This document shows positions 772 to 23,139 of a DNA stretch of 64,000 bases, piece after piece. The stretch spans positions 67,483,917 through 67,547,916 of the forward strand of contig CM049319.1 in assembly GCA_026874595.1 (NCBI GenBank), written 5' to 3'. This DNA is from Sipunculus nudus (Eukaryota; Annelida; Sipuncula; Golfingiida; Sipunculidae). The notes beneath the pieces were generated by a model. The model was not told the DNA's origin. It saw only the letters and a list, made by a program, of their open reading frames with translations, and did no database searches. The first letter of the stretch is position 1, and each line of letters begins with the position of its first letter. Position numbers and translations under genes: made by a program.

Positions 772-993
772 TCAGGCTATGACTTGGTAGTTCAGAGTGA
801 AGCCATGGCGTTGCACGGAGCTGTCCGTTCTCAGTCTCACATACACGATGTTTGACGTGCTGGTGAACGGGCTGGGGATATTATTGCCGCAGTGCTCATT
901 CTTCATGGCGGGGTCCTCGTAGATTTCGATGGCATCCCAATAACACGTGCTATGTTGTTCCGCGTCAAAACGAGTGAACACAATGTTGATTCT
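772..993 (-). CDS. CUB gene exon 6: second half of CUB domain and stop
   Basis: The acceptor TTTTTAG (995-994) opens phase 0, reading RINIVFTRFDAE, STCYWDAIEIYED, EHCGNNIPSPFTS, NIVYVRLRTDSSV and QRHGFTLNYQVIA, then TGA. This is the CUB second half: F..F, C-x-W/Y-D-x-x-E-I, C-G and G-F-x-L-x-Y. The spacing completes the two Cys pairs begun in exon 5. The CUB calcium-site acidic residues (the D of RFDAE and the D of YWDAI) appear present. The domain ends at the stop, so CUB is C-terminal. Confidence 0.87.
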   Translation of the reverse strand, partial: RINIVFTRFDAEQHSTCYWDAIEIYEDPAMKNEHCGNNIPSPFTSTSNIVYVRLRTDSSVQRHGFTLNYQVIA

Positions 994-1879
994 CTAAAAA
1001 TAATTAAATAAAATAAAAATATAAGAAGTGTCAATAATAAACCAACTAGCCTATAACCAAGGTTTGAGTATCGTCTAAAAATCATGAAAATTTCATTTTT
1101 TTCTCAGAAAATTAGTTTACGTCTAGATTATTGTTATACCAAAAAAATTGTGATTAATAATTGCGTTTATCCTAAGAAAAATAGCATTTCATCTGTCCGG
1201 TCAACGCTATGTGGATTGCAAATAGAAATACGAGAAATCCAACACATGCTTCAGTTTCAGATTGGCTGACAAATGGAGTTAAGACTTGATTGACATTTGA
1301 ATTTGTGACCTGCAGTAGCCAGTCTTTTTAGTTTGACCAGTGTTTATCTTGATAAGATGGTCCCTTTTTATTACCAATTTGTGTAAATCAGAATAACCTA
1401 GTGACCTGATCACCAGTGGACATGCGTTATATAGGACTATATAAGCCTCGCCTTAACATTAATTTCGAATTTACAGACTTGAAATTTCGCATTAAAATCA
1501 CGCTTTGTACATGATAAATTGTTAAAAGTAATTCAGGAGGGAGGGAACAAAATCACATCATGATATCTGCCCGCATTCACATTATAGTGAGCCATCTAGC
1601 ACAAATTTACTCTTCCCAAACGATTATTGTAATTCTCTTCAGAATTATATTCTCACAAACTTTCATAATAAAACTGTCGAATTCGGCAAGTATATATGAA
1701 AACATGTATTAAACAAATGTGTGGTTCTTTCCATTTCCATTTTTTGTTTGTTTTCCATTTAAAAAAGAGCAATTTGTGAATCTGTTATGATATTACAATT
1801 TAAGAGAGAAAGACCATGAATATGTACATGTGAATATGTATATATATATATATATATAATTTATGCTCTAAATCATTAT

Positions 1880-1935
<56 letters not shown>

Positions 1936-4900
1936 CTAAACGAAACAAAGGTAGTTCGACTAACCTTCGGGTAAAAAGTCTGACCTGACAGCAGAAACCT
2001 AAGCAGGTTAAGCCAGTGTGTGTTTAATGGTCAACCGCATGTGATATAGGTTTTGTATAATTGTGACATGATATCACTCATTATTTTAAATATGAATCCT
2101 AGATTGACAATATGTTTTCGTTTCCTTATATAATGTAATTGAGTGACATATTACCATTTTATTTTGTTTTATATAGTACTAGCTGATAAATCCGGGATAC
2201 CGGGCATATTACCGGGGTTGGGGAGATATATTAACTGAGATGTGCAATGTTGGCTCATTTTTTTTATTCTAAAAGTTAACGAAAATATAGGTTTTCAGTG
2301 GGAAACTGTCTCGATAAGATATGTATAAATGATTTTACATTTATTTTGTTGCGCTGTCTCATGGCACGAAATTCATACCCCGGTATGTTTACCTTGAAGA
2401 CCTAGTCAGTGATGATGTTTACATTGCAAAACGGAATGTGACGGGGGCATTTCGGTTTTCGATGATATTTGACTGGATTCTATCGTTGGACGTATAAAGA
2501 TAAGGTTGATGTGAGGTGCACATGAAAGATTTATCAAATGTACGTTGCAAGGAAACTGTTCCTGTAGAAAGAAACAGAAATATGCATACATCGTATGTAG
2601 CACAAGCGGACCCAACGGGCTTAAACCCCCGCCACCCCTGCCCAACCCTGTTCCTGAAGTTGGGACTTTGAATTGGGTCATTGATCCTCCTGGGTTCAAC
2701 ACTCCATTTCATTAAGCGAGAAACAACTGTTTTTCTCTTTTACTGACCATGCACGTGGGTGAGAGCCTCGTACAAATTTAAAGCCCGACATGCTCAAATC
2801 CCTTACTTAAAGCAAGTGTATTCATATGAACAATAGTCTGAGATTGAGTGACCACGCACGCTTTCCGGTCATTGCCGAAGGCAGTTCGGCTGTGCTCGGT
2901 CTAACCTCAGTGCAAGTCAGTAAAAACGGAAAAATCACTCAAAATTATATGTACATTAAAATTATTTATTCTCATATCGCCTATGTCACTGCAGGGATAA
3001 TAACCTTTAAAATGATGTATGGCACAGTATTGTACACAATGCGGTTTTAGAGAACATTGCGACCAAACGTGAACCGAATTCCTTTTATAAGTATTAGATT
3101 TGAGCATAGGAAGGATCCAAATTTTTATTCTTTTTAGATTCGAATCCCATGCGATTAGGATAACGTTATGCTTCCTTTTGAACAAAAAGATGTAATTCAC
3201 TAAATAAACAGAACTTCGTATTTACCCTCTGGCTGTTGTGTATTTACCGAGACTGAAGAAGATATGGCAAATTGTTTTTAAGACCGCTCTTACCAGGGGG
3301 AGCAAGTAGCATATTTACATTTTAATACCAGGGCGAAACGTCTATTAGGGCATCTTTAAGACAATACTTACAGGAAAATGACGAACATATATATAGAAAC
3401 TCTGACTGTAGTTTAAAAAAAACAAGAAGTTTCATACAACGAAAAGTAGGAAATATTTAGAAAACGTTTGCCCGCGATTGACTCGGTAAAATGACCTGGG
3501 GGGGGGGGGGGGGGGGTCCAAGCTAGAAAAATTATTCTGAATGCCTTGAAAGGGGATTGCGGCTCCCGGAAAAAGGACCCCCAGGCCCCGCCCCCAGGAT
3601 CAGCTTATGTTTAGGCATAACCATGTACATATATTGGTTGCGGGAGGTGAGTGAAAGGAGAAATTTAATAAATAAACAAAATGTAAGTTCACACCTCTTT
3701 TTGAAAATGAACATTTTATGCGGGTGTCTGACAAAATGTTTGACAGGTGGCGACATCTGTAGCCAATATTAAAAGCTGCTATTCAGCGCGAAAGGAGAAA
3801 AACAAACCCCTATTTTCATGCAATAAAATAAAACTTCGGAAGTGTGAGTTTGATATAAACATAACACCTTAAGCCTAGATAAAAAAATATCTGCACCTTT
3901 TAACCCGGAAAGGTTCCTGTAACCTTAAGGTATCTTGTAAGTGAGGGTGTATTTATTGTACGTACCTTTCCAACTGGAGCTTCTATTCTCCAATTACAGT
4001 TCAGATTGTTGTCGTAAAGGCTTCCGCTTGCAGGGTATTTGATTTCCCCTTGGCATGCAGATATGCGCACAGGATTAACTGAACAAGCTGAATAATAAAT
4101 ACAGTACAGCCTTGATTATTTGGACGGTTCACTTTATGAACAAACTGAAAAATTAATACAGATAAGCCTTGATTATTTTGACAATTCCCTTCATAAGCAT
4201 GCTGAAAAATGAATACAATGAGGCCTTGATTATTTAGACAGATCCCTTCCTGAATAGGCGGAAAAAATAAAGTAGAGCGTTGATTATTAGACAGATATCC
4301 TTTTTAAACAAACCGAACAATTAATACACTAGAGTTTTGATTATGTTAACAGTTCCCTTCATTAACATGTTGAAAATGAAAACAGTAAAGCCTCGATTAT
4401 TTGGACTGATTCCTTTCTTTAAAAAAAGCTGAAAATGAATATAATGGAGCATTGATTATGTTTCAAGTTCCTTTAATGAACAAGCTGAATAATAATAGCC
4501 TTCATTTTGTTAACGGTTCCGTTCATGAATAAGCTGAATAATGCAAAGAGTAGAGCCTCGATCTTTTGAACAGTTCCCTTCATGAACAAGCTGAACATAA
4601 ATACAGTAGAGCTTTGACCATTTGAACAGTTCCAATCATGAAAAGGCTGATTAATTAGTGCAACACAGCCTTGACTATTTAACAATTCCCTTCATAAACA
4701 AGCTGAACTTTGAATACAATCGAGCCTTGATTATTTGAACAGTTCCGTCCGTGAACCGGCAGAGTAAAAAGCATGGCGGGCGCTCTTTTATCTGAAAAGT
4801 TCCAACAAGGGCAAGCTGAAATGAAAAGCACAGTGCCGTTTCTTTAATTGGAACAGCACCATAATTATGAATCCTCCATTATCTTGTTTTTACATATGCT

Positions 4901-7900
4901 TTACATAAATTGCGTTAAGCTGGACTCTGTTGGTCAGGAATTTGAATTTCCAATCAAAGATATGTTGTCTAAATGCATGTCAGGATGTTTCTATTCAAGC
5001 GTTTTTTTAAGAAATTAAATTTCGTTTGGTAAAGATTTACTAACATACAAACTGTCACGAAATGCTAGACATCTAAGATATAATCCCTTCGCCAAACCTT
5101 TCTTGGCCAAATGTGCTCAAATGGCCACATAATGCACAGGTGTGGTATGTTTGTGCGTCGGACGCAAGTAATCTGTTGTTTACACACACGGCAGCACCAC
5201 TGGATCATCAGCGGCATTACTCATACAAACGCACTTTAAAACGACGAAATAGCCGTTAAAAATGACGACGTATTATATCGAAGCCACTTATCTAGTTGCC
5301 ACACCAGGTTATGAAAATAGTGTTCAGGTTGAAATATCATGGCTAATATTTCAGATACAAGGTTTCCTAGAGGATATGAACTAAATAAGATTAATCACAC
5401 ACGTGATGGGTACAGTTGACTTTATGCAACTAGAGAACTATCCTCAACTAGCTTCCCTTCATTCTTGTAACTCTTGTGGTTAAATGGATGTATACCTTAC
5501 CATGTGATGTGACACTTGCAAAAACAGTAAATGGTTGCACATGTTTAGGTATCCCAAAAGTAGAGGTTTTATTTAATGAACTGCTTAATTTCGAGTAACT
5601 ATAACAATAACTGTTAATTGGCTTCCGAGGCTCTTTATTTGGGTACAAAAGTAACGGCTATGAGTAGATGTTGTTCAAGGCTTGCTATTGTAAAGGTGAC
5701 GCACCAAAGAAACATTAGACCCTTGTCAAGTGTATGCGTAGACTGGCCCAGTCAATTCAGCTGAGAGGACTTTAAAATGCTCCCGCAGAGGGAGCTATCA
5801 AACTTGCTCTCTATGCATCGCAACGTTTAGAATACGTACCGCCATCTAGTGGCAAATTATATAACTAATACCTGACTACGGCAGCGATAAGTGCCTGCAG
5901 GGAGTTCACGTCTATCAAAGCATGGGATCAGTGTTTTTAAGCATTTTAGTAGCAAATGGACTAACGCCCTGACAGGACAAGTGCATGTGCTGCAAAAGTG
6001 GACTCAGACAGTCTGGGTTAACGAGAGCCCTTTTCCGTGGGCTGTCAGTTATTTGTTTACACATGAAGCTACTGTTCCCACAAAAATTACTGTCTATGTT
6101 TTTCAGTTTTTCTCAATAACTTAATAAAGAATATGTGTAAAAACGCAATGCGATCACCGGTAGAGCCCCCCCCCCTTCCCACACACACACGCACCCCAAC
6201 CTGGGCTAAAATGAGAAATCGGCTTTAGAGTGTACGAGCTTGGCAATAATTTTAATTACAAAATACACACCAGGGTTAAAGCTGTGACCTTGGACTAATA
6301 TTGTGACCAAAATTCATCTTTGAAAATCAACCATATTGGAGATCTAGCGCAAACAGGTTATGGCATAAAAAGTTCAACAAAATGAAATCGGTGGTTTGCA
6401 CCTAGTGCCCTTAATAGTTACAACAACACAATTATTTTACCCAAATATGATCATGAATTTAGAAATTAACTCATCAAGCCCTTATAAGCCTCCCAATTTT
6501 ACGGGGGTGAGGTCCAAATAGTAAGCCCTTGTTTTCTGACTATACAGAAGTTTAAGTTTATAAAATAATTTATAGCTATGCAAATTAAAAGAGATTAATT
6601 TGTTTTAAAACTTTGAATATTTGAAAGTAATGTTTAGTTGTTCCATTAAGCACAAAACAACACACAGACCGATATATCGGAATTATGTGACAGACAGACA
6701 ACACACAGACCGACATATAGCCAAAGATATGATAATAACAGACAGACAACACACAGACCGTCATATAGCCAAAGATAACACAATAACAGACAGACAGCAC
6801 ACAGACCGTCATATAGCCAAAGATATGACAATAACAGACAGACAGCACACAGACCGTCATATAGCCAAAGATATGACAATAACAGACAGACAACACACAG
6901 ACCGTCATATAGCTAAAGATATAACAATAACAGACAGACAACACACATACCGTCATATAGCTAAAGATATAACAATAACAGACAGACAACACACAGACCG
7001 TCATATAGCTAAAGATATAACAATAACAGACAGACAACACACATACCGTCAAATAGCCAAAGATATGACAATAACAGACAGACAACACACAGACCGCCAT
7101 ATAGCTAAAGATATGACAATAACAGACAGATAACAAACAGACCGTCATATAGCTAAAGATATGTCAATAACAGACAGATAACAAACAGACCGTCATATAG
7201 CTAAAGATATAACAATAACAGACAGACAACACACAGACCGTCATATAGCCAAAGATATGACAATAACAGACAGACAACACACAGACCGCCATATAGCTAA
7301 AGATATGACAATAACAGACAGATAACAAACAGACCGTCATATAGCCAAAGATAACACAATAAAAGACAGACAACACACAGACCGACATATAGCCAAAGAT
7401 ATGACAATAACAGACAGACAACACACAGACCGTCATATAGCCAAAGATATGACAATAACAGACAGACAACACACAGACCGTCATATAGCCAAAGATATGA
7501 CAATAACACACAGACAACACACAGACCGAGATATAGCCAACGATATGACAATAACAGACAGACAACACACAGACCGAGATATAGCCAAAGATATGACAAT
7601 AACAGGCAGACAACACACAGACCGTCATATAGCTAAAGATATAACAATAACAGACAGACAACACACAGACCGTCATATAGCCAAAGATATGACAATAACA
7701 GACAGACAACACACAGACCGCCATATAGCTAAAGATATGACAATAACAGACAGATAACAAACAGACCGTCATATAGCCAAAGATAACACAATAAAAGACA
7801 GACAACACACAGACCGACATATAGCCAAAGATATGACAATAACAGACAGACAACACACAGACCGTCATATAGCCAAAGATATGACAATAACAGACAGACA

Positions 7901-10900
7901 ACACACAGACCGTCATATAGCCAAAGATATGACAATAACACACAGACAACACACAGACCGAGATATAGCCAACGATATGACAATAACAGACAGACAACAC
8001 ACAGACCGAGATATAGCCAAAGATATGACAATAACAGGCAGACAACACACAGACCGTCATATAGCTAAAGATATGACAATAACAGACAGACAACACACAG
8101 ACCGTCATATAGCCAAAGATATGACAATAACAGACAGACAACACACAGACCTTCATATAGCTAAAGATATGTCAATAACAGGCAGACAACACACAGACCG
8201 TCATATAGCCAAAAATATGACAATAACAGACAGACAGCACACAGACCGACATATAGCCAAAGACAAGACAATAACAGACATAAAAGCGTTGTTGCCTTCT
8301 AAGGTAAAGCTGCATGTCAATTTGATATACCAATATTATATACGTAGACAAACAGGTATTTCAAGCAGAAAGCAATGGAAGACTTCAGATATTCGTAATA
8401 AAAATATCAAATCTTCTTAAATAGACTCATATTAAACGCATTAACAGTTCCACTAATGACAATGAAGAAGAGCTACTTATCTTTGATAAACAATAAACCA
8501 GAAAGCTTTTATCTATTGACAATTCTGATATAAAATACATATCACTTAAAGAAAACGTTGAGCAGACATTCACTTACTGTAGCTGTTGTAGCTTCGATGG
8601 TTGCATGATGATGAGGCTGGTGTTGTTGGGTAGGTCTGGCCGCTGGAGCTTGGAGAGTAGCTGGAGTAGCTGTAGCTTGACGAGTAACTGGAGTAGCTGT
8701 AGCTTGACGAGTAGCTGGAGTAGCTGTAGCTTGACGAGTAGCTGGAGTAGCTGAAGTTTGAAGAGTAGCTGGGGTAGCTGTAGCTTGGAGAGTAGCTGGA
8801 GTAGCTGTTGCTTGACGAGTAGCTGGAGTGGCTGTAGCTTGGAGAGTAGCTGGAGTTACTGTAACTTGGAGTGTAGCTGGAGTAGCTGTAGCTAGGAGTG
8901 TAGCTGGAGTAGCTGTAGCTTGAAGAGTAGCTGGAGTAGCTGTAACTTGGAGAGTAACTGGAGTAGCTGTAGCTTGGAGAGTAGCTGGAGTAACTGTAGC
9001 TTGGAGTGTAGCTGGAGTAGCTGTAGCTTGGAGTGTAGCTGGAGTAGCTGTAGCTTGGAGTGTAGCTGGAGTAGCTGTAGCTTGAAGAGTAGCTGGAGTA
9101 GCTGTAACTTTGAGAGTAACTGGAGTAGCTGTAGCTTGGAGAGTAGCTGGAGTAACTGTAGCTTGGAGTGTAGCTGGAGTAGCTGTAGCTTGGAGAGTAG
9201 CTGGAGTAGCTGTAACTTGGAGAGTAACTGGAGTAGCTGTAGCTAGGAGTGTAGCTGGAGTAGCTGTAGCATGGAGTGTAGCTGGAGTAGCTGTAGCTTG
9301 AAGAGTAGCTGGAGTAGCTGTAACTTGGAGAGTAACTGGAGTAGCTGTAGCTTGGAGAGTGGCTGGAGTAACTGTAGCTTGGAGTGTAGCTGGAGTAGCT
9401 ATAGCTTGGAGAGTAGCTGGAGTAACTGTAACTTGGAGTGTAGCTGGAGTAGCTGTAGCTAGGAGTGTAACTGGAGTAGCTGTAGCTTGAAGAGTAGCTG
9501 GAGTAGCTGTCACTTGGAGAGTAACTGGAGTAGCTGTAGCTTGGAGAGTAGCTGGAGTAACTGTAGCTTGGAGAGTAGCTGGAGTAGCTGTAGCTTGGAG
9601 TGTAGCTCGAGTAGCTGTAGCTTGGAGTGTAGCTGGAGTAACTGTAGCTTGGAGTGTAGCTGGAGTAGCTGTAGCTTGGAGTGTAGCTCGAGTAGCTGTA
9701 GCTTGGAGTGTAGCTAGAGTAGCTGTAGCTTGGAGTGTAGCTAGAGTAGCTGTAGCTTGGAGTGTAGCTGGAGTAGCTGTAGCTTGGAGTGTAGCTGGAG
9801 TAGCTGTAGCTTGGAGTGTAGCTGGAGTAGCTGTAGCTTGGAGTGTAGCTCGAGTAGCTGTAGCTTGGAGTGTAGCTCGAGTAGCTGTAGCTTGGAGTGT
9901 AGCTCGAGTAGCTGTAGCTTGGAGTGTAGCTCGAGTAGCTGTAGCTTGGAGTGTAGCTGGAGTAGCTGGAGTAGCTGTAGCTTGGAGTGTAGCTGTAGTA
10001 GCTAGAATAGCTGTAGCTTGGAGTGTAGCTATAGTACCTGGAGTAGCTGTAGCTTGGAGTGTAGCTGGATTGGCCGGAACTGTTCCCTTTATATAAAAAT
10101 AAACAAACGTGGGATTTATCTTTGTTTGTTTCTTTAATCAATCATTATCTCCCCTTTTAATCCAATAAATATTTGATAATTAGTATTATCATAATACATG
10201 TATATCACAAACCTGTGAATCATACAAATATGAAGATGTAGGTATGAATTAGATACTTATTATGAAAATAGTAATAATACGTGTGTCACGTAGTGTTTTA
10301 AACTGTGCCCTGAGTGGCCGGAGTAGCTTGAACTGTTCTCTGAGTGGCCGGAGTAGCTTGAACTGTTCTCTGAGTGGCCGGAGTAGCCGGAACTGTTCTC
10401 TAAGTGGCCGGAGTAGCCGGAACTGTTCTCTGAGTGGCCGGAGTAGCCGGAACTGCGTCCTGCTGGCCAGAGTGGCCGCAAGTTTTTACTGTATCAACCT
10501 CTATATGCTTTGGCCAACGGGATGGCATTATACAAGAATTATACATCCATTGGATTATGGATCGACATCCCTCGGATCATAGATCAGATCACTCGGATCA
10601 TGGATCTAGATAACTCGGATCATGGATCTATCCCTCGGACCATTAAGCCTTGTGGCACTTGTTTTTCTCGTGTTAACATTTAATGACATTTACAGCATTT
10701 CATCCCTAAATATCAACGATATTCTGAATTACATGGCTGTCAATGAGGCTTTGGGGAGGGGGGAAAGTGGATTAACAAAAATACTGTTTGTAGGTTTAGC
10801 AGTTAATAGTTAATTTTATTACGCCTCCGTGACATAATAAATCTCTGCTACCAAACCACCATATAATATATCATCTATAACGTTACTGAAGAAGTCCTAT

Positions 10901-11220
10901 GTGGGGATTTATTATTTAACAAATGTGTATCTGTTGTATCATTGTTGACCTCACCTTGGAGCAGATGTTTTATCTCAAACAGCAGGTCTGTGATCTGGAG
11001 GAGGAGGTATCGGTCGGACGGAACGCCCCCTAAAAGTTCAAATTATTTAAATGTTAATCCCTTTCCTTATTTCTTTTAATATTTTAACGTATTTCCGATA
11101 CCTGGTAAAATAACATTTATTTATCTCGAACATAACACATACTAATTCGTGCGTACAATATAATTTTGTGTTGGGAGGTCTGATCCACAGATTACACAAC
11201 CGCCTATGGATATATGGACT

Positions 11221-11288
<68 letters not shown>

Positions 11289-14200
11289 GAACTAATACCA
11301 GAGAGATTTTGTGCATGGGTAAAACAGCACAATTTTGGTTTTAATAAATTTCTTATTAAACCTACAGGGCTAACAGACTTGACTGGTAATCAAATACTTA
11401 TAAATGGAATTCGGTTCACGTTTGTTCGCAATGTTCTCTAAAACCGCGTTGTGTACAATACTGTGCCATACATCATTTTAAAGGTTATTATCCCCGCAGT
11501 GACATAGGCGATATGAGAATAAGTAATTTTTAATGTACATATAATTTTGAGTGATTTTTCCGTTTTTACTGACTTGCACTGAGGTAAGACCGAGCACAGC
11601 CGAACTGCCTCCGGCAATTACCGGATAGCGTGCATCGTGGTCACTCAACCTCAGACTATTGTTCATATGAATACACTTGCTTTAAGTGAGGGATTTGAGC
11701 ATGTCGGGCATTAAATTTGTACGAGGCTCTCACCCACGTGCATGGTAAGTAAAAGAGAAAAACACATGTTTCTCGCTTTATGAAATGTAGAGTTGATCCC
11801 AGGAGTATTAATGACCTAATTCAAGGTCCCAATTTCAGGAACAGGGTTAGACAGGGATGGCGGGAGTTTAAGGCCTCAAAATGTGTCTGATACGATGAAG
11901 AAAAAGGTTGCGGTGCCTGAAAATGGGATACGGACCCTCTGCATGGAGTCCCGTTGGGTCCGCTTCTGCTACCTACGAGGTATGCATATTTCTGTTTCTT
12001 TCTACAGGAACAGTTTCCTTGCAACGTACATTTAATAAATCTTTGATGTGTTCCTCATATCAACCTTATCTTTATACGTCCAACGATAGAATCCAATCAA
12101 CCGGAATGCCCCCGTCACATTCCGTTTTGCAATGTAAACATCATCACTGACTAGGTTTTCAAGGTAAACATACCGGGGTATGAATTTCTTGCCCCGAGCA
12201 CAGCGCCACAAAATAATGGTAAAATTATTTATACATATTTTATCGAGACAGTTTCCACTGAAAACCTATATTTTCCTTAACTTTTAGAAAAATGAGCCAA
12301 CATTCCACAACTCAGTTAATATATCTTCCCAACCCCGGTAATAAGCCCGGTATACCGGGTTTATCAGCTAGTCTACGATATTTGCAATAGCGCACCAGCA
12401 TACATCACCGCTCGATTATTAACAAAATAGCTGGATTTCACCTCCCTTTCCCCTCCTGTCATTCATTAATATATTTATTTATAATTATTTTTTTTCTTTT
12501 ATTCTTTTTGTGATCTCCCTCTTCCTGGTTGATACTTCGTACCAACCTCCCATGCTAATTTCAGTTTAACGGCGTAATAATTCACCACAGTCACTTTTCT
12601 GTAGGTTCACTGTATACTGGTCTGCTTCTCAACAACCTCACAACAACCTGACATATTACATTTTGAAAAGTTAATAATGGATTTGTAACCGTTTTGCTTT
12701 GCTGTCAGTTCAACACATTAAAGTATTTTGTATATTTGAATGTTTGCATGTGGCATAACTGCAGTTTGTCAAACTGTCTGTTTATTATTCTACCTGTTGG
12801 TCATATTAAAATGACATTTAACCATATACTCTAGGTTGAAGGTGTTTTGCCGCATGCTTAATATAAATGTTTCCGATGTGAAAAAAAGATTGAAATAGAT
12901 CCAAATGTTATTTTCCATAAGGAGTAACTTTAACCTATCATAATGATGATATGATGATTAGCCTATCCTAATTATGATATGATTATTAGCCTTCCAGAAT
13001 GATGATTTGATGATAAGCCAATCATAATGTAAATTACAAAATAATAGTGCCTCCGGGATTTCTGATGTTTGGGGAAGAAGGGATCTTAAAAGAAACCAAT
13101 TTCCAAATAACCTGTACAAGCATGCATTCAAGAATAAAAATGTCCGTGACATGTTTGTTATATTGTAGACTAAAAACCATCACTCAAAGATATAAAATGT
13201 AAACTAGGACAGGGGGATACGGTTTTTTTTTTTTTGTTATATGTTAGACCAAAGTGTTGATAAAATCTGTACCTCTGAGAAACGGGTAAGCAAGATAAGC
13301 AAATTATTGACTAACAGGCGCTGTAATAAATACATTTGTTCAACAAGTCTTTTTCCACTTTTTTTCTCAATATCTCTCGCATTCGTTCCATTTTATATTT
13401 TAAATTATATATACTAACCCTGATGAAGACGATAACATATTTTCATGACCCTAGAAGCTTGCAGTTTTAAAGTATCCTTTTCACTGTTATAGGTATTTTG
13501 AAACATTCTTTACTCATTTTGGGACGAACACCCCGTAAATCCCCTGTAAATTTTGCAAACTCAATTTTAAAACTTTATCTGGAGTGACTTTGCACTAGTG
13601 TATGCACAATGATGCTTTATGAATATTATTATGCATCAAAATTGCATAACTTTGACACAAATAGAATTGGAAGAACATGAGCTTAATTTTAATCATAGTG
13701 TATAATGAGAAAGTAATAGTCCATAAACCAATGCAAAGTCGCTCAAGAAAACAAAATTAAAGGGCGAGCGGCGTGGGCTTGTGGTGGTCTGTTGGCAGGA
13801 GACGCCATTTGTAGTTACCGCTTTACAATAAATAAATAATTTACCTGCTTTTGATATATACTGTAATCAGGCTTATCAACATGCAGTTTCCTTTTTCATT
13901 TATGTTAAGGGATGGGGGTGTCCAGGGTTCCTTTTCTCCTGGTTTTATTTGTATATTGGATGGAATTACCTTGGGTATTTTGAGAACTGGTTCCTGGTTC
14001 GGCCACAGACACCGGTTCAGGAACGGCTGTACCGACATCCTAAAAAAAATTATATCGAAACAGTAAGTGATCAGTTATTCACCAACGGTCCCATGACATT
14101 CCCTCTACAAGTCAATTTAATTCAACCGCTGCTTGTATGGCAAGCATTCGCCGATGACCGCCACCAGGTGCTGACACCGGGCCAAGATTCTTTGACCATC

Positions 14201-15890
14201 GGTTTCGTCAAATAAAATTGGGGTATCATGAGTGTTAGCGACGTTTGCACTCTTGACGCACCATTGGAATACTGCTCCCCTGAATGCATACATCAGCAAA
14301 TGCTTCCCGTACAAGCAGTGGTTGAAAGAATTTGATTAGTAGAAGTAAGAAAATGAAGAGTCTAAGAAAAAGAAAAAGTTCTAAAATTCACCTAAATTGG
14401 TAAAAGTGCAATACAAGACACGCTTCAGAAATACTTCCCTGTCGGTCAATTATACATTTCACCTCGAGTCAGAGAGTTCTCGTCTATTTATGATCACGGG
14501 AAAGTTTGAAAACGCAGAGGGCATAGGGACGGGTGTTTAAAAAAGGCGATATTTCTTATATCCCGCGCGGCTCTGATGTTGCGTTTGTATTTCACGTCGA
14601 CAGGTTTCAGTCGGTACTGGTCTTATAGCGTACAGGATTTTGATCCCGACATGATACAGTCATTAAAAAACTGTTCTAATGGTCAATGTATGCCTGACCG
14701 TCCGTCAACCCGTCATAGTCTGTCAACACAAAAAAGGGGTAACCCGCATGGATCAGCCGGAGGTTTCACTTGAACAAGAAAAAAAATACCGTATATCGGG
14801 ATTATGTATTACAAGAACCTTGTAGCAAACTATGCACCGCTCCGGGCGAAAACACTCCATGCGAAATATTTGCATACATATCTGCGCCGATCTGTCGCAC
14901 CGCCACATGATATACAGCACTTAAAAGTAAAACAATCTAACGGAACGTGTGTATTACGTGATTGAAAAGAAAACTATTCAAGCGAGTATATTAAAACATC
15001 TCGCGATAAAATACTTTCCAAGCGAGTATATTACAACATCTCGCGATAAAATACTTTCCAAGCGAGTATATTAAAACATCACACGATAAAATACTTCACA
15101 AGCGAGTATATTATAACATCTCGCGATAAAATACTTTCCAAGCGAGTATATTATAACATCACGCGATAAAATACTTTACAAGCGAGTATATTAAAACATC
15201 CCACGGACCAGCAGTACAAATAATATACGCCACCTGTATTACACCGTAAGAAATTTGTTGTATCTCAACGCGCATAACAACACCTAATCAGAAAAGAAAC
15301 CTTAACCGTATAGTAAAACTGATGTACCGACCCATATCTATTAATTTTGCACTAGCGGAAAATTAAAAACCGTACCGCGCATGCGTTATACAATACCGAA
15401 GAGAACTGTGCAGGCCAGCTAAATACAAAAGCCTCCTGAGAAAAAAAGTATCATTCGAGCGCGTGAGTAAAATAAGCTTTAGAGGTATATCGTAGAACTG
15501 ATTGTACGTTTACAGGCGGGGTAATTACAACATCCAGTAACAGACCACATAAAAAGAAAATCCTGCCTTTGATTGTTAACTAATTTTAACTAATGAAGGG
15601 CTCTCCGTGACTCTGTAGTTCTAGAGGCGGAGCAAACCGGAGAACCCGGAAAAACCAACGACTACGACCCACTCCCCTAGCCAAACCTAAGATCGACTCC
15701 GGGTGGCCAGGGGAGACAGCATTTTACCCATCGACACTCCAGGCCCCAGTTATACTTGCATAATTATTACAATACCGCTTTAGGAAATACACCCCTTCAA
15801 ACATACTCTTTAGCCCTACCCTTCGGCACTCACCTGACACGCGACATGGCTGGCTACCAGAATGAGGCAGGTTGCTAGGAGACACTTCAT
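772..15890 (-). CDS. Secreted Ser/Tyr-repeat protein with C-terminal CUB domain (six-exon gene model)
   Basis: I assembled this gene from exons 15834-15890, 13970-14039, 10955-11029, 8578-10086, 3966-4087 and 772-993, all minus strand. Every junction is GT/AG and the phases agree in series (0, 1, 1, 1, 0), giving 2055 nt or 684 residues plus stop. The order is a 19-residue signal peptide, a Pro/Glu/Ser linker, a short Leu-rich amphipathic stretch, about 500 residues of Ser/Tyr nonapeptide repeats and a roughly 110-residue CUB domain. CUB domains are extracellular beta-sandwich modules for protein and glycan binding. Tyr-rich repeats are known in mussel byssal adhesives and other hardened secretions. 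I infer an extracellular adhesive, shell-matrix or mucus protein. I recognise no named orthologue. The big exon is phase-symmetric (1-1), so skipping it leaves a 181-residue CUB protein. The splice chain is my reading of the DNA and is unconfirmed. Confidence 0.72.
1835..1933. repeat. TA microsatellite
   Basis: Two TA blocks separated by a short unique stretch. Confidence 0.9.
2176..3106 (+). mobile_element. Interspersed element, copy 1 of inverted pair
   Basis: This stretch matches 11391-12374 in reverse complement: the CTAGCTGATAAA end, the CCGGGxTACCGGG motif, the AAACGGAATGTGACGGGG block and the GTGAACCGAATTCC end all recur. It has no intact coding frame, so it is probably a non-autonomous transposon of unknown class. 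Confidence 0.65.
3499..3516. repeat. Homopolymer G run
   Basis: About 18 consecutive G bases in intron 5. Confidence 0.9.
3966..4087 (-). CDS. CUB gene exon 5: first half of CUB domain
   Basis: 122 nt, phase 1 in and phase 0 out. Acceptor TTATTCAG/CTTG (an alternative AG lies 9 nt further, at exon start 4078); donor GGAAAG/GTACGT. It reads CSVNPVRISACQGEIKYP, ASGSLYDNNLNCNWRI and EAPVGK. This matches the CUB opening: C, then G..xxP.SG.L, then N-C-x-W-x-I and the P-x-G turn. The acceptor lies inside a minisatellite unit (see 4081-4856). Confidence 0.82.
4081..4856. repeat. 57-bp degenerate minisatellite containing the exon-5 splice acceptor
   Basis: About 14 imperfect units of about 57 bp, each with GAACAAGCTGAAxAAT, then CCTTGATTATTTG, then GTTCCCTTCAT. 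The first unit includes the acceptor of exon 5. On the minus strand many units repeat the ATTATTCAG/CTTGTTC acceptor, giving a row of potential decoy 3' splice sites. Confidence 0.8.
4088..8577 (-). other. Intron 4 of CUB gene
   Basis: 4490 bp between the Ser/Tyr exon (donor GTAAGT) and exon 5. It holds the 57-bp and 48-bp arrays. From 4860 to 6600 I see no recognisable gene; short frames there look like chance. Confidence 0.6.
6655..8284. repeat. 48-bp minisatellite with 432-bp higher-order repeat
   Basis: Tandem units about ACACAGACCGTCATATAGCC plus AAAGATATGACAATAACAG plus ACAGACAAC (48 bp), about 34 copies. A nine-unit block starting near 7297 recurs exactly 432 bp later (near 7729), showing higher-order duplication. 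The unit is a multiple of three, so long frames arise on both strands. The minus-strand frames read Cys-rich and hydrophobic and have no matching splice sites. I treat it as intronic and non-coding. Confidence 0.88.
8578..10086 (-). CDS. CUB gene exon 4: giant Ser/Tyr nonapeptide-repeat exon
   Basis: This 1509-nt exon carries 502 complete codons with no stop. The acceptor follows a T-rich tract (TATAAAG/GG). The donor CTACA/GTAAGT comes just before an in-frame stop. The 27-bp unit encodes about YSSYTPSYS, roughly 50 copies, with T to S swaps. The ends are non-repetitive: NSSGQSSYTPSYS at the start and SSSGQTYPTTPASSSC at the end. About one residue in three is Tyr, a feature of proteins cross-linked or made adhesive through Tyr/DOPA. 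DOPA modification here is inference. Because 27 is a multiple of three, other frames are also partly open, but only this one is open throughout and bounded by strong splice sites in compatible phase. Confidence 0.68.
8640..10070. repeat. 27-bp minisatellite (coding array)
   Basis: Tandem 27-bp units (plus strand core AGCTGGAGTAGCTGTAGCTT) with interspersed variants. The array fills almost all of the Ser/Tyr exon. The unit length preserves the frame. Confidence 0.93.
10087..10954 (-). other. Intron 3 of CUB gene
   Basis: 868 bp, GTGAGG to TATAAAG. It contains the 30-bp array (10304-10459) and a short tandem of CTCGGATCATxGATC near 10560-10640. Nothing else is recognised. Confidence 0.6.
10304..10459 (-). 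other. Candidate extra or decaying exon made of a 30-bp repeat (NSSGYSGHSE)
   Basis: About five 30-bp units read GYSGHSENSS in the open minus frame. A possible acceptor (CAGCAG/GA) and a poor donor (CACA/GTTTAA) would give 156 nt in phase 1-1, the symmetry of the neighbouring exons. The unit shares AACAGTTCCGGC with the first bases of the large Ser/Tyr exon, so it may be a duplicated exon start. The weak donor and weak pyrimidine tract suggest it is rarely or never used. Confidence 0.3.
10955..11029 (-). CDS. CUB gene exon 3: Leu-rich amphipathic segment
   Basis: The acceptor is TTTTAG and the donor CAAG/GTGAGG; 75 nt, phase 1 to phase 1. Only one of the three frames is open. It reads GVPSDRYLLLQITDLL then FEIKHLLQ, a likely short amphipathic helix that could mediate association. 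The symmetric phase is compatible with the repeat exon that follows, or with direct joining to exon 5. Confidence 0.68.
11227..11281. repeat. TA microsatellite
   Basis: Uninterrupted TA dinucleotides in intron 2. Confidence 0.92.
11391..12374 (-). mobile_element. Interspersed element, copy 2 of inverted pair
   Basis: Reverse-complement partner of 2176-3106. The outer ends are AATACTTATAAATGGAATTC on the left and TTTATCAGCTAGT on the right. It sits in intron 2. The pair could fold in the pre-mRNA across exons 3-5. Confidence 0.65.
13970..14039 (-). CDS. CUB gene exon 2: Pro/Glu/Ser/Thr linker
   Basis: The acceptor is a T-run followed by AG (14041-14040); the donor is CAAG/GTAATT. The exon has 70 nt, begins in phase 0 and ends in phase 1. 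It reads DVGTAVPEPVSVAEP then GTSSQNTQ. This hydrophilic linker sits directly after the signal peptide. The incoming phase matches exon 1 and the outgoing phase matches exon 3. Confidence 0.68.
14040..15833 (-). other. Intron 1 of CUB gene
   Basis: 1794 bp, GTGAGT to T-run AG. It contains the 40-bp array (14980-15203). No other gene is seen; an 88-codon plus-strand frame overlapping exon 2 is treated as a shadow. Confidence 0.6.
14980..15203. repeat. 40-bp tandem array in intron 1
   Basis: About 5.6 copies of a 40-bp unit with AAGCGAGTATATTAAAACAT then CTCGCGATAAAATACTTTCC. Each unit has a TCGCGA or similar palindrome. It lies about 630 bp inside the gene from the start codon. Confidence 0.92.
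15834..15890 (-). CDS. CUB gene exon 1: signal peptide
   Basis: The ATG at 15890-15888 has A at -3. It opens 19 codons reading MKCLLATCLILVASHVACQ, a typical signal peptide (K after M, hydrophobic core, small residues before the end). The exon stops at CAG with donor GTGAGT, phase 0. A longer minus-strand frame crosses the same DNA but has no hydrophobic leader and ignores the strong donor. Confidence 0.8.
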
Positions 15891-15948
15891 GTTGACACGG
15901 CAACGAACTGGCGTGCACACAAGTGATGTAAACCGCTTGACATCTTTG

Positions 15949-15957
15949 CTTTAAATA
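15949..15957 (-). promoter_or_regulatory. TATA-like box of CUB gene
   Basis: TATTTAAAG on the minus strand, about 60 nt upstream of the ATG. It would place transcription start near 15925 with a 5' UTR of about 35 nt. Position is the only support. Confidence 0.45.
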
Positions 15958-16634
15958 CCTTCTGAAGCTATTACAGGTGTGCCATTTATTAAACCCATCC
16001 CATCCCAACCCTTACACCTGTAGCCAGTTCAAATATACACGTGAGTTTTCTTCCAGGTGAAACAATGGAAATAATTTCTGTTCAAGGTTTACCCATGTTA
16101 TGACAAGTGTTAAGTATGATTCTATTATTGAAATCAATTTCCCAAGCAGGTGAGCTCGCTACTGGTCCCTACCTTGATACCATCAGCAGTACACTGTTAT
16201 TGATATATGTAACTGTATTACTGACGTACAGTTATGCACATACATTGTGTGATCAGCGTACAGCTGATTCTAACCGGTAATGTATCGTAACAGGCCAGAT
16301 TAAAACATCACCAAATAACCGATATGCCGCAACCAAAAAAAAAATATAAACCCCATTCATCCATGAGTGCCAGAATGAGTTGTATTCATAAAATTTAAAA
16401 ACTTATTTTTAAAATGACACGTATATACAGTAATCACAATTGCTCTATGATATTTTATGTTAAATCTGACATGAAAATGTCTGAATCTTCTTATTTGAAG
16501 TAGTATAATCATGCATCATTATATATCTAACATTACCGATGCAGCATATGTATATATAAATATATGTATATAAATATATATATATATTTATATATATAAA
16601 TCTCTTCCCTCTTTTTTCACTCAACATATTTGTG

Positions 16635-16637
<3 letters not shown>

Positions 16638-16695
<58 letters not shown>

Positions 16696-16703
16696 GGAAA
16701 GAG
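16638..16703. repeat. TA then GA microsatellite
   Basis: A TA block runs directly into a GA block. Confidence 0.9.
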
Positions 16704-17928
16704 AGAGCGAGAGAGAATTTACAAAATATAAAAATTTTACTCAAATTTGAAAATCACATTTTATTTCAATTTTATGAACTAACACAAAATGTTTGTTTGG
16801 AACCTAGGACAGAAGAAAGAGTCTTCCGTATATATAAATATATATAATTGTGACCTAATTTCCAATTTTTAATGATATTAATACCAGCAGGGAAGTTACG
16901 TTAAAGGTCTCGTGGTCAAACAGAGTTGTGCCCTGTTGATAGACGGAGCGCCGGACGGGCTACCGAAACACAAGGGTCTCTATAGCTCAAAAGACTTTCT
17001 GGCGACTTGGCTAGAAATGTTACAAGTTGTTTTATTGAAAGTATATGGGTCCTGAAGGTCCTGAAGCTATTGTACTGGATAATTTTGAATTACTGAAACT
17101 TAAAGCAAATTTTGTTTTCTGCTTTTGAAACACGTTTGTATTATCGCTTAAAACTGTACATTACTTTCCTTGGTTCCTTCATAGCAGGGATCATTGACTA
17201 AAACGTTCTCATTTTAATCAGACCCCTAGTAATGTCATTTCTGGCACAGCTGTTATTGGCCCCATGAAGAAGACAGTCACTGGTAACACTGTTTTAAAAA
17301 GTCCATGATCAATCTATGATTTTTTTGTAGTTGTGTGATACAGTATAACGTGGATTTATTCAAATCCCTTATTCTGAGAGTAATGATGTCATGCATAAAT
17401 GTGAAACTTCAGCACTGAATCAATCTCAGACAATTAATATGAATATATTAAGCAGTATTATAATGTAAGCTCTTCTACCGATGAGAGAACGTGGAAATTT
17501 AGCGATTATTCTATTAAACTAGTAACGTATTATTAAAGAGTTAAACACTGAAGTCGAAAGGGTCTGTTGCAACAACATTTTACCGGACTTCAGCCAATGA
17601 GCCGGCTAAGATGCCATTTGTCAATTGTGACGTCATAATGACTCGTCTCGGACTAGGAGGTAAGGACCTGGGAAATCAGGCGAGTCCATCTCAGTTCTTG
17701 GAAATCAGGCGAGTCCATCTCAGTTCCAACAGAAGCTCAGTCACAAACCATACAGACCAACTACTGAAAGAATATTACATATAAAGACTGTATACACGAA
17801 ACGTAAGGCCTGAACTGGGAGATAAGTGTAATTAAACATTATGTAAAAGGATGTCAAAACTATCACAAAAATTCTCATGGTAGTTCAATTTTAAATTTCT
17901 TTATATAAGGAGATTTTTAATGGACTCG

Positions 17929-18823: not shown

Positions 18824-19011
18824 AATTTAGAAAATACTTGAAATCGTACGATTTAACGACAACCTGGCGCGTGCCTGGGGGATATCCTTTGTGGGGGTCG
18901 AGCCGGGATCCTTTCCGCTGGAAGCCGTACAATTGAACACAGGGCCATTATTGCGTCGGTGCTACATGGAAGGTAAGCTATTTTGTTTACCCTGAAAGTA
19001 ATATTATTACA

Positions 19012-19674
19012 ATGTCTTCAGATCCCGCCTCCCCTGTTCTCCTGCTTGACCACTCTTTTATCAAGAGGCTAGACGCCTTCTTGAAAAACGGGGATTATGA
19101 TAAGGGTAGTTTCGACTCTCTTTTGGTTGAGGTCCTAAGGCGGCCCCCAATAAACCTGGGTCTAGATAATAGGGAATTTGCCGTGCGTTTTCATGGCGTG
19201 GGTGGCATGAAAGTTCGTGGCTTTGATCCGGCCAAATCGCTTACCAGCGCAGCTACCATGAAGGTCATCGAAAATATTAAGCCTAAAGTCCTTTACTTAG
19301 ACATCGGTTCGAACGACCTCTGCGATAAGAAAGTGAACCCTTGTAAACTAGCCAACCATGTGTTCTCGTACGCTTGTATGATAGCAGAAGTGTACGAAAT
19401 CAAACAGATGATATGTGGCTCGGTTGTGCCAAGACACCCGAAATGCCTCCCTTTCCCCACGTACAACGATGCCGTGGCGAAATACAACTCCGCACTAGCC
19501 GAAGTTTGTCTTACACATGAGCGGAATTGTATCAAATTCTGGAAACACAAAGGTTTCGCTCAGCCGACCAGAACCATACTTAAATATGATGGCGTCCATT
19601 TAAACTCTCGGGGCATGCTTAATTATGCAGCCAGCATCAAGCGGTCAGTCGTTTTTAAAAGTAAACAAACTTAA
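19012..19674 (+). CDS. Ngaro ORF: SGNH/GDSL-like hydrolase
   Basis: 220 residues. It keeps an SGNH plan: LLDHSFIKRL at residues 11-20 (nucleophile Ser15; the usual GDS is changed to DHS), LDIGSNDLCD (Asn101 in the GxND block) and YDGVHLNSRG (Asp193 and His196). SGNH enzymes are esterases or lipases. Such domains accompany gag/pol in Ngaro elements, where their role is unsettled. The altered GDS block could lower activity. In the second copy only the last 35 residues or so remain, from about residue 186. Confidence 0.8.
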   Translation: MSSDPASPVLLLDHSFIKRLDAFLKNGDYDKGSFDSLLVEVLRRPPINLGLDNREFAVRFHGVGGMKVRGFDPAKSLTSAATMKVIENIKPKVLYLDIGSNDLCDKKVNPCKLANHVFSYACMIAEVYEIKQMICGSVVPRHPKCLPFPTYNDAVAKYNSALAEVCLTHERNCIKFWKHKGFAQPTRTILKYDGVHLNSRGMLNYAASIKRSVVFKSKQT

Positions 19675-21714
19675 TAACATATGACAAAAGAAGGCTTCAT
19701 CCTTACAGGGCTAAGGTATAAGATCTGGTCATAGGTAGTTTGATTATCTACACTTCATTTAAAAGCAGTTTAACGACTTTGGCAAAGGAATACCCCTCGG
19801 CAGTCTTGCATTACTAATTGTGCAATTACACAGCATTCTGCCAACCCCCCCCCCCCCCCTTCCATCATAGGTGTGTGGATCATAAACACTTCATTGATAA
19901 GCAGTTGACCACGCGGCAGTCTTGCATTACTAATTGTGCAATTGCAATGCTTGCTGCCAACCCCCCCAACCCCCCTCTTTCTGATTCAGAATAAACTTTA
20001 GTCGTACATAGCTTTCATTGAGCTCATAATATTTAATACAATTATGCCTACCCTTGTGCTTGTTCCACAGGTTTTACCAACTTGTTTGACATTTATTGCT
20101 GAATAATTGTTCTGTTTTATGTATGTCATAACATCTGTAGACATAAATTGTGATGTGTGTTATCCAATTCCCACTTGTTTTATGTTACTTTTCGGGCAAA
20201 CAATGTCCCAACTGTTTGTACAAGTACCCCATTGTCTTATATTGAAACTGTATTGTTCTTGTGGTGTTCCCACTTTGATAATTTTAGTGTCGAAGGGCCA
20301 AAACATTTAGTGTCATGTGTGTTATCCAATTCCCACATGTTTTATGTTACTTTTCGGGCAAACAGTGTCCCCACTGTTTGTACAAGTTACCCCATTGTCT
20401 TATAAAGAAGCCTATATTGTTCTTGTGCTGTTCACACTTTGATAAATCTAATGTCAAAACGTCGAAATATTTATGTCTTGTGTTGTTTTTGTTTTAGTCT
20501 ATGTAATGCTTAATACTTATTTCTTGGTACAACATTTATATGTGCGATATGTGTTACCCAATTCCCGCATGTTTTATGTTACTTTTCAGGGACAACATGT
20601 CCATTTTATTATTGTTTCTTGTGGGACCACATTTATATAATTTATGTTATGTGTTACCCTGTTCCCACTTGCTTTATGTTACTTTTCAGGGACAGACTGT
20701 CCATGTTATCATTATTACCCACCGGTTCACTGCCACATACAAAACTCCCATAAGCATACTACAATATATATAGGCAGTGTTTGTTTTCCAATTTGTTCCT
20801 ACAATTAAGGGCAGTGTTTACAAGTACATTGCCCCCCCCCCCCCCCCACACCCCAAACTTAACCTAGTGCCCATTTTCTGGGGTTCATTACTGATTACTA
20901 ATCTGTCGTGTTATGTGTTATAATATCTACATAATTTGTGATATCTGTTACCCCATTCCTGCATGCTCTATGTTACTTTTCAGGGACACAGGTTCCTTAT
21001 TGTTAGTACTGGTTACCCCATTATCAAAATATACAAGCGTATATTGTTCTTGTGCTGTACCCCCTCTGATATATTGTCCTATTATTACCCTGTTTATTGT
21101 CAAAGTGCCAAGACCTTACCTAGTGTTTTGTGTCGTTTCAGTTTTTCAGATGTTATCACTATCTGGAGCACTTTTTACCGGGACATTGCCCCGTATATTT
21201 GTCTTGGGGGGGGGGGGCATTATAACAGCTCAGGTCCATAAAAAGTGGACTACCTGAATTACAAATAGTTTTAAATGGTTCTTGTGCTGTTCCCCCGTGA
21301 TATTTGCTCTATCTTACACATATTATTTATTGGGGGGGAGGGGGCGTTACATCTATTCTGACACTTTATTGTGATTGATCTGCTAAGTAAATTTTCCATG
21401 TCATTAAATGATTATGTACTCATAATCTCATTACATAATCCCTCTCTGGCACAAAGGACCAAGTACCAGTTAAGATAATACTAGTGGCCATATTAGTACC
21501 CCATTACATTTGACAAGACATTCCAGTTAAGGCAATTTGGGCGAAAATTATCAGCCTTGCCAGTTATAAATTCTTTAAGTATTTTCATGCCATTACATAA
21601 TACATTTCAGACGTAAGTCCTAGTAAGATCCGCTCAGTATTGCAGGGTTTTTTAACATGTGTGAACTTCATTAATTCCATAAGTATTTTCCTGCCATCAA
21701 ATTTTACATTTCAG
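19675..21714 (+). other. Ngaro internal non-coding region with tandem repeats
   Basis: It contains C-runs near 19847 and 20832 and, at 20150-20480, about two units of a 160-bp repeat (TGTGTTATCCAATTCCCAC, TTTTATGTTACTTTTCGGGC, GTCCCCACTGTTTGTACAAG). Weaker relatives follow to 21010. No protein is recognised. The matching region of copy 2 has three units. Confidence 0.65.
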
Positions 21715-23139
21715 ATGCCGCGTACACGTAAGAACCAGCTGGATGCATCACCTATAATAACCCGCGACCAGTCAACAAGAAGAGCCAATGTCCAGCAACA
21801 GGACAGCAACAGGAAATTCAAGGCAACCTCTGCCAGAGCTCCAAGCAGACGAGCACGCCCATATGACCCACATCAGGAACAACAGCCAGGAGGACCCGAC
21901 TTCTCCCAGCAGCCTGTGCTCCAAGCAAGTATGCAGTCGCAGCCTGGCTCTCAAGGTTCAAATGAATTGTCACCCGCAATGTTAAGAGCAATTCAGACCG
22001 CTGTCAACTCGGCCATGGCAGCAGGGTCCAGCCAGTCAAACAGCACTACCACGCTACGTGCTCCAACACAACGGCTGTCGACCGCAGCCAGCTTCGCCAC
22101 AGCAGCAGGTCCGAGTGGGTCCACCAACACTACCACATCAGGGTTGTCACCACAGCAACAACCGACCACAGCCAACCCGTCCACGGAAGATTGCACCAGC
22201 CAGGCCTACAGGTCCGCTACACTCCCTACACAGGCACAGCTACCTACAACCAATTTTACAAGCCCCACCGGGGTGGCACAGCCTTCAGTTCATCTAGCGG
22301 AAGGCAACAATGCTCAGGTTACTGCATCTGTAACAGGACAGACCGCACAGACTCTGATACATGAATTGTTGGGTGAGTCATCACATTCCCCAGCAAAACA
22401 AAACCAATGTGAACCAGGTACAGCACAGGTACACAACCGCCTTTTCACATATGACACTATAACCGCAGGGATTGAGCTTAAAGATCACACAGATATCATC
22501 TCCCAAAAATATTTTGACTTAACTAAACTGTTACCTCAACTTGGGTTTCAGGTGGGGGATAAAGACAAAAATAGCAACCTCACACTCACTATCACCAATG
22601 ACCCTCACTCCCCACTATCATATCAACCCAAGACAAAAACCCGTACCATCAATTCAATCTCTGCATGGGTAGCTGCATACACCAGATATGCATTCATTAG
22701 GGTTTCCACCTTCCCGGAGGAAGCATTAGGGCACCTCCGGCACCAACACCAGGTGTGCCAGCTTCAAGCCATGTACCCTGGAACTCAGGCAATGAGTTTT
22801 TATGACCAAGCCTATCGTAAATATTGGGCCACCATCCCCCTGTTCCCATATGGAAGTCAACTGGATGGACTTATGGAGGAAGCCCGTAGTAAAGGTAACA
22901 TGATTCAGCCCTTTCGCGCAGGTTCCAACATTAAGAAATCATCCTCATCAGGGCCACAGGAATCCTTCAGTGTCCCCCCTGGGTTTTGCTTTGAATACAA
23001 CAAAACCACACGTTGCTCAAAGTATCACTGCTGCAGATATACCCACAGTTGTTTCATGTGCTTCTCCAGGGCACAACCACACAACCACCCACGCTGTAAC
23101 TGTAAAGAGTTTCCCCTCCAGGGAGCCTCCTCAAGGTAA
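21715..23139 (+). CDS. Ngaro gag-like protein
   Basis: 474 residues from the ATG of MPRTRKNQLDASP (start chosen because that ATG begins the basic N terminus; the frame opens further upstream at 21640). The N-terminal half is Ser/Thr/Gln/Pro-rich. The middle resembles DIRS/Ngaro gag (SAWVAAYTRYAFIRV, YPGTQAMSFYDQAYRKYW). The C terminus has a Cys/His cluster around CSKYHCCRYTHSCFMC and a later H/C pair, as is usual in the group for nucleic-acid binding. The ATG directly follows TTACATTTCAG, which resembles a splice acceptor. Confidence 0.8.
   Translation: MPRTRKNQLDASPIITRDQSTRRANVQQQDSNRKFKATSARAPSRRARPYDPHQEQQPGGPDFSQQPVLQASMQSQPGSQGSNELSPAMLRAIQTAVNSAMAAGSSQSNSTTTLRAPTQRLSTAASFATAAGPSGSTNTTTSGLSPQQQPTTANPSTEDCTSQAYRSATLPTQAQLPTTNFTSPTGVAQPSVHLAEGNNAQVTASVTGQTAQTLIHELLGESSHSPAKQNQCEPGTAQVHNRLFTYDTITAGIELKDHTDIISQKYFDLTKLLPQLGFQVGDKDKNSNLTLTITNDPHSPLSYQPKTKTRTINSISAWVAAYTRYAFIRVSTFPEEALGHLRHQHQVCQLQAMYPGTQAMSFYDQAYRKYWATIPLFPYGSQLDGLMEEARSKGNMIQPFRAGSNIKKSSSSGPQESFSVPPGFCFEYNKTTRCSKYHCCRYTHSCFMCFSRAQPHNHPRCNCKEFPLQGASSR

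Follow-up and report, generated by a model that had tools for sequence, protein, structure and literature searches.

A putative secreted protein of Sipunculus nudus combining a lysine-free Ser/Tyr nonapeptide repeat with a CUB domain

Cement proteins of the Pc-3 type from the sandcastle worm contain Ser runs interrupted by Tyr, and the secreted proteins of the mussel foot protein-1 (mfp-1) family carry short repeats with Tyr in long succession. In Atrina, the protein apfp-1 is described as a linker, its 3,4-dihydroxyphenylalanine (DOPA) repeats binding the byssus and its C-type lectin domain binding tissue mannose (PMC4912638). Furthermore, the segment SYSGYS is described for the FUS-like Tyr/Ser low-complexity domains with low-complexity aromatic-rich kinked segments (LARKS) (PMC8551513). 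Here we describe a putative gene (positions 772-15890, minus strand) in a 64,000-nucleotide stretch of the Sipunculus nudus genome (assembly GCA_026874595.1, contig CM049319.1, positions 67,483,917 to 67,547,916; hereafter the window). It is predicted to encode a signal peptide, a long Ser/Tyr repeat and a C-terminal CUB domain. Judged from its sequence, it appears to be a genuine gene that codes for a secreted structural protein, in which a nearly uncharged Ser/Tyr polymer would be docked by a calcium-site CUB domain; we estimate the probability of this interpretation at about 0.55.

The predicted coding sequence consists of six exons, all on the minus strand. Exon 1 (15834-15890; MKCLLATCLILVASHVACQ) encodes the predicted signal peptide and ends with a phase 0 donor, exon 2 (13970-14039; DVGTAVPEPVSVAEPGTSSQNTQ) leads from phase 0 to 1, and exon 3 (10955-11029; GGVPSDRYLLLQITDLLFEIKHLLQ), which contains a leucine-rich stretch, has phase 1 at both ends. 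The nonapeptide repeats are encoded by exon 4 (8578-10086; 1,509 nt, phase 1 to 1), whose complete codons correspond to residues 69-570. Exon 5 (3966-4087, phase 1 to 0) provides the N-terminal part of the CUB domain and exon 6 (772-993) the remaining part and the stop codon, with a poly(A) signal AATAAA (728-733) located ~40 nt downstream of the stop. The join comprises 2,055 nt (684 codons and TGA) with no internal stop, and all five introns are of the GT...AG type, with cumulative phases of 0, 1, 1, 1 and 0. A previous reading based on the sequence alone (the sequence-only reading) had proposed six exons with 684 codons; its exons, borders and phases were rebuilt identically, and the strand, which it had omitted, is minus.

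According to rough weight matrices, each of the five donors scores within the top 3% of the interval's 990 GTs. Against its 773 AGs, the five acceptors reach percentiles from the 70th to the 96th, with that of exon 3 as the weakest. The G+C content is 0.44-0.55 in the exons versus 0.35-0.41 in the introns. Exons 2 and 3 have values of 0.54 and 0.55; note that 5.8% of 1,272 overlapping 72-nt intron pieces likewise attain 0.52. A search of the rest of the genome (E up to 10) revealed no relatives of these two exons, and their support consists of splice borders, phase and G+C content. Enumeration of internal exons between exons 1 and 4 with fixed splice thresholds resulted in two candidates, 14262-14361 and 10955-10994. 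The latter combines the exon 3 donor with a later acceptor and has a different phase, and the modelled exons 2 and 3 score under the acceptor threshold applied.

What goes beyond chance is the in-frame joining of two CUB halves, separated by 3 kb, into a complete domain, and the position of the intron between them, which is common to other CUB exons of the genome. The presence of the domain, suggested by the sequence-only reading, was confirmed by a profile match to Pfam CUB (PF00431; E 1.5e-21, 77.2 bits versus a cut-off of 21.4) that covers residues 579-680 and profile positions 5-110 of 110. It was the sole Pfam match of the protein at E up to 0.1, with no C-type lectin domain detected in this search. 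All four core CUB cysteines (Cys582, Cys601, Cys628 and Cys646) are present. Among Protein Data Bank chains, cubilin was the best match to the domain, followed by PCPE-1. Glu623 (in FDAE), Asp631 (in YWD) and Asp668 (in TDSS) align with acidic positions of the cubilin and PCPE-1 CUBs, and we take them to be the calcium-site residues. With this Glu/Asp/Asp set, the domain corresponds to calcium-site CUBs and is predicted to bind calcium. It differs from its relatives in the genome, the closest near-full-length one of which (33% identity) belongs to a CUB-trypsin protein on contig C17. Several CUB matches within open frames of about 839-897 aa can be found on C16, C10 and C11 (L019, L028).

The position of the CUB-internal intron recurs in other CUB genes. 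On contig C13, a GT is located at the corresponding place in 4/4 matches to a half-exon pattern that have Gly plus Lys/Gln/Arg/Glu within 16 residues, and in 3/3 matches to a narrower pattern. The 12 further wide-pattern places on C13, which do not have this residue combination, include chance matches and CUB pieces ending otherwise and were left unjudged. An exon on C5 (L023) has an AG acceptor at the matching place. When the narrower pattern was applied to 26 other CUB loci, three places were caught, with GT only at the C13 one. The shared position is independent support for the predicted exon 5/6 junction, and the similarity to other CUB proteins of the same genome includes, for those on C13 and C5, the internal intron position as well as the CUB match. 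The C13 locus itself (20 kb) contains several CUB pieces in one direction and no 27-bp array; two matches to parts of the repeat found there (E 7.2 and 7.4) are at chance level.

Exon 4 harbors an array of 51.8 copies of a 27-bp unit with 90% matches (Tandem Repeats Finder). In the spliced frame, it encodes about 51 nonapeptide copies with the consensus SYTPSYSYS, and the pattern S[YH][TS][PSQ][SC] occurs in 51 copies starting at residues 75-543. Its 502 complete codons specify 249 Ser (49.6%), 156 Tyr (31.1%), 45 Pro (9.0%) and 31 Thr (6.2%), in addition to 3 Gln, 2 Arg, 2 Gly and 1 Asp, and neither Lys nor Glu; Ser and Tyr together account for 81% of the residues, and trypsin sites are almost absent. 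Tyr is encoded by TAC in 153 of 156 cases, and the Ser codons AGC and AGT are used 137 and 22 times. An 87-residue query revealed no second copy of the repeat exon in the 1.43-Gb genome, with 150 of 531 candidates scored. The only matches outside exon 4, two overlapping ones on C11, were rejected as relatives of the repeat; interrupted by 7 and 6 stops, they appear to be due to chance.

This repeat has Ser runs broken by Tyr in common with the Pc-3-type proteins but differs from them by its regular nonapeptide with Pro/Thr and by the attached CUB domain. With the mfp-1 family it shares the extended series of short repeats containing Tyr, here in a presumably secreted protein; however, Lys is not found beside Tyr, and the mfp-1 decapeptide is missing. 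The closest parallel in layout is apfp-1, which has the same succession of signal peptide, Tyr-bearing tandem repeats and C-terminal calcium-dependent binding domain that is predicted here (PMC4912638). The repeats of apfp-1, though, contain Lys, Pro and Val (VVPDYKPP, PVYK) and precede a Gly-rich stretch, and its head is formed by a C-type lectin domain instead of CUB. Because there is no Lys in the 502 codons of the repeat and no lectin domain, the gene does not appear to be a member of the mfp-1/apfp-1 family; its resemblance to apfp-1 would lie in the outline of its working. As to the FUS-like domains, SYSSYS is a single Gly-to-Ser step away from SYSGYS (PMC8551513) and both are rich in Tyr and Ser, whereas the protein studied here is predicted to be secreted, and the 502 residues of its exon 4 include 2 Gly and 3 Gln. 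Secreted Tyr-repeat structural proteins with a binding head are a known kind, of which the lysine-free Ser/Tyr nonapeptide combined with CUB appears to be a variation. In the part of the open-licence PubMed Central literature that was covered, this layout was not met, in line with the sequence-only reading, which knew of no named family with it.

Starting from this architecture, we infer the following mode of action. The signal peptide would direct the protein to the secretory path. The Ser/Tyr block would be a disordered low-complexity polymer able to bind to itself and to other proteins via Tyr stacking and hydrogen bonds. After secretion, it might be hardened by oxidation of Tyr, or its Ser/Thr residues might be O-glycosylated or phosphorylated. 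The CUB domain could dock the polymer to a partner, with a basic side chain probably engaged at its calcium site (by comparison with known CUBs). The protein would then be a two-part linker, with the polymer as its arm and a head that binds in a calcium-dependent manner, possibly in a secreted glue, a byssus-like fibre, mucus, periostracum or shell matrix. The sequence-only reading had suggested an adhesive or matrix protein anchoring a cross-linkable Tyr polymer through CUB. Its structural part (a predicted signal peptide, Tyr-rich nonapeptides, C-terminal CUB) is supported by the six-exon join, the composition and the Pfam match, and the interpretation as a whole is supported in part.

Further arrays are present in the introns around the repeat exon. 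Intron 3 contains a 30-bp array (10301-10455, 5.2 copies) whose minus-strand translation, in a frame compatible with phase 1, is ENSSGYSGHS; the array has AACAGTTCCGG in common with the start of exon 4 and is possibly an extra or decayed exon. In intron 4, a 48-bp minisatellite (6690-8280, 33 copies) has open frames on both strands (up to 335 aa) and is most likely non-coding. A 57-bp array (4080-4746; 11.9 copies with 68% matches) starts at the acceptor of exon 5 and keeps five acceptor-like places of the form TTCAGCTT[GA]TT, one of which is the real exon 5 acceptor.

Several observations weigh against the proposed gene. Exon 4 is phase-symmetric (1-1) and could therefore be skipped, or could even be an intronic minisatellite; as the frame would stay intact without it, the model is weakest on the question of whether exon 4 is used at all. 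The openness of its frame proves little, since the unit length of 27 bp is divisible by three and another minus-strand frame likewise runs for 531 aa without a stop. Nor was the substitution test decisive: changes from the consensus in 50 units comprised 39 synonymous, 38 nonsynonymous and 0 stop changes in the Tyr frame, compared to 36, 41 and 0 in the next frame and 22, 48 and 7 in the third. Among 500 shuffles of the same changes, one attained the 39 synonymous changes of the Tyr frame (48 were without a stop), and none attained the 36 of the next frame. Over the codon positions, the changes were distributed 39/3/39 in the 51 units of exon 4; a skew (41/11/15) was, however, also present in the 33 units of the intronic 48-bp array. 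AlphaFold, run on 120 repeat residues as a single sequence, gave a mean predicted local distance difference test score (pLDDT) of 39.5 with no confident fold. Finally, two CUB exons on C1 (L002, L012) read through at the place of the CUB-internal intron, so that its position is common to some CUBs of this genome and not to all. The substitution test leans towards coding without settling the question, and the frame of exon 4 was chosen by the splice borders rather than by the substitutions. In a possible but doubtful alternative, exon 4 would be a 27-bp intronic minisatellite, and exons 1, 2, 3, 5 and 6 would encode a small secreted single-CUB protein of ~180 residues. Such a product would be in frame, both the end of exon 3 and the start of exon 5 being phase 1, another minisatellite does occur in intron 4 of the same gene, and the substitution patterns do not clearly separate exon 4 from it. 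However, the exon 4 donor GTAAGT lies in the correct phase 58 nt past the last motif copy, a hexamer found 26 times on both strands of the window (0.20 per kb). In addition, the exon 4 donor and acceptor are at the 97th and 96th percentile, the non-repeat ends of the exon resemble the array in their Ser/Tyr make-up, and about 51 copies have accumulated neither a stop nor a change of frame.

Alternatively, the protein might be a mucin-like, lubricating or immune secreted glycoprotein, with the repeat as O-glycan carrier and CUB as recognition module but no role in adhesion or cross-linking. We regard this as improbable, although Ser and Thr make up 56% and Pro 9% of exon 4 and CUB proteins are common among the secreted defence and mucus proteins of animals. 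A DMBT1-like CUB/SRCR protein also heads the list for the pedal disc of an anemone (PMC6626399). On the other hand, Tyr is kept in the repeat, with replacements at 5/150 Tyr places versus 2/200 Ser places in 50 units. A Tyr content of 31% is, moreover, unusual for a mucin domain. It seems very improbable that two genes were fused by eye, one encoding a Ser/Tyr protein with exons 1-4 and the other, unrelated, the CUB domain. Exon 4 read past its donor does stop after two codons (SYNSYSK stop), and intron 4 contains 69 combinations of a signal-like ATG with a phase-1 donor, but the 12 displayed of these all lie within the 48-bp array, have GTGTGT-type donors and look like array artefacts. Furthermore, there is no AATAAA or ATTAAA on the coding strand from 10138 down to 6256, a point 2.3 kb beyond exon 4, so exon 4 is unlikely to be a last exon, and a DNA search with the promoter gave no second copy on C14.

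The upstream end of the predicted secreted-protein gene has copies elsewhere in the genome. The core promoter and 5' leader (15891-16000, minus strand), identified by DNA alignment and search, contain TATTTAAAG ~67 nt upstream of the ATG. Promoter, leader and signal exon are found in three further copies, all on C17, with 88-89% DNA identity over 172-178 nt, and TATTTAAAG is kept in 4/4 copies. This recurrence and the poly(A) signal after the stop both count in favor of the gene model. The alignable segment (14366-16826, minus strand, 2.46 kb) covers the promoter, exon 1 and most of intron 1; it matches the three C17 places in pieces with 72-78% identity, and the alignment ends before exon 2. 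One C17 copy has AAG instead of ATG, and core-2/I-branching transferase frames are located 5-6 kb downstream of two of the three copies. With the whole protein as query, six C17 loci (L049-L054) gave the signal exon only at E up to 1, a search that short diverged exons could escape, and the CUB-only query gave two chance-level matches there (E 4.1 and 6.0). The hydrophobic core of the candidate signal peptide has a mean of 2.96 over 8 residues.

A more far-reaching proposal, which we consider speculative and rather unlikely, is that the Ser/Tyr polymer, free of lysine and specific to its lineage, represents together with its calcium-dependent CUB head an independent solution to the byssal-linker design of polymer arm plus binding head, and that it arose from a new minisatellite-grown exon behind a ready-made promoter/signal exon module copied between chromosomes. 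If expressed, the gene would provide a very simple natural polymer on a defined binding head, and a test of Tyr-rich secreted assembly without Lys and almost without Gly. It would also be a clean case of how a promoter/leader module that is shared, a minisatellite exon and CUB can be assembled into a structural protein gene.

Two introns contain an inverted pair of one element (2178-3100 in intron 5 and 11388-12372 in intron 2; 89-93% identical). Outside the gene, two copies of another element are located at 18937-25670 and 34193-38677, the first with a GDSL hydrolase frame (Pfam) followed by frames that look reverse transcriptase-like and recombinase-like by eye; both copies look like elements of the Ngaro/DIRS type. 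An open frame on the plus strand (55002-57083), with ~651 residues after the acceptor-like site TTTTTACAG, has 118 Lys+Arg versus 49 Asp+Glu and repeated TRGRR..PTV..PRR units; Pfam gave no match to it (E up to 0.1), and it possibly encodes a basic repeat protein. Elsewhere in the genome, there are 11 matches to COX1 (PF00115), 10 of them on contigs C60-C123, with COX1-family open frames of 489-578 aa on C60, C61, C62, C66, C72, C74, C75, C89 and C123, none of which is among the long contigs. Of these, C123 (L046) was inspected, and its open frames look bacterial by eye; the assembly therefore seems to include associated bacteria.

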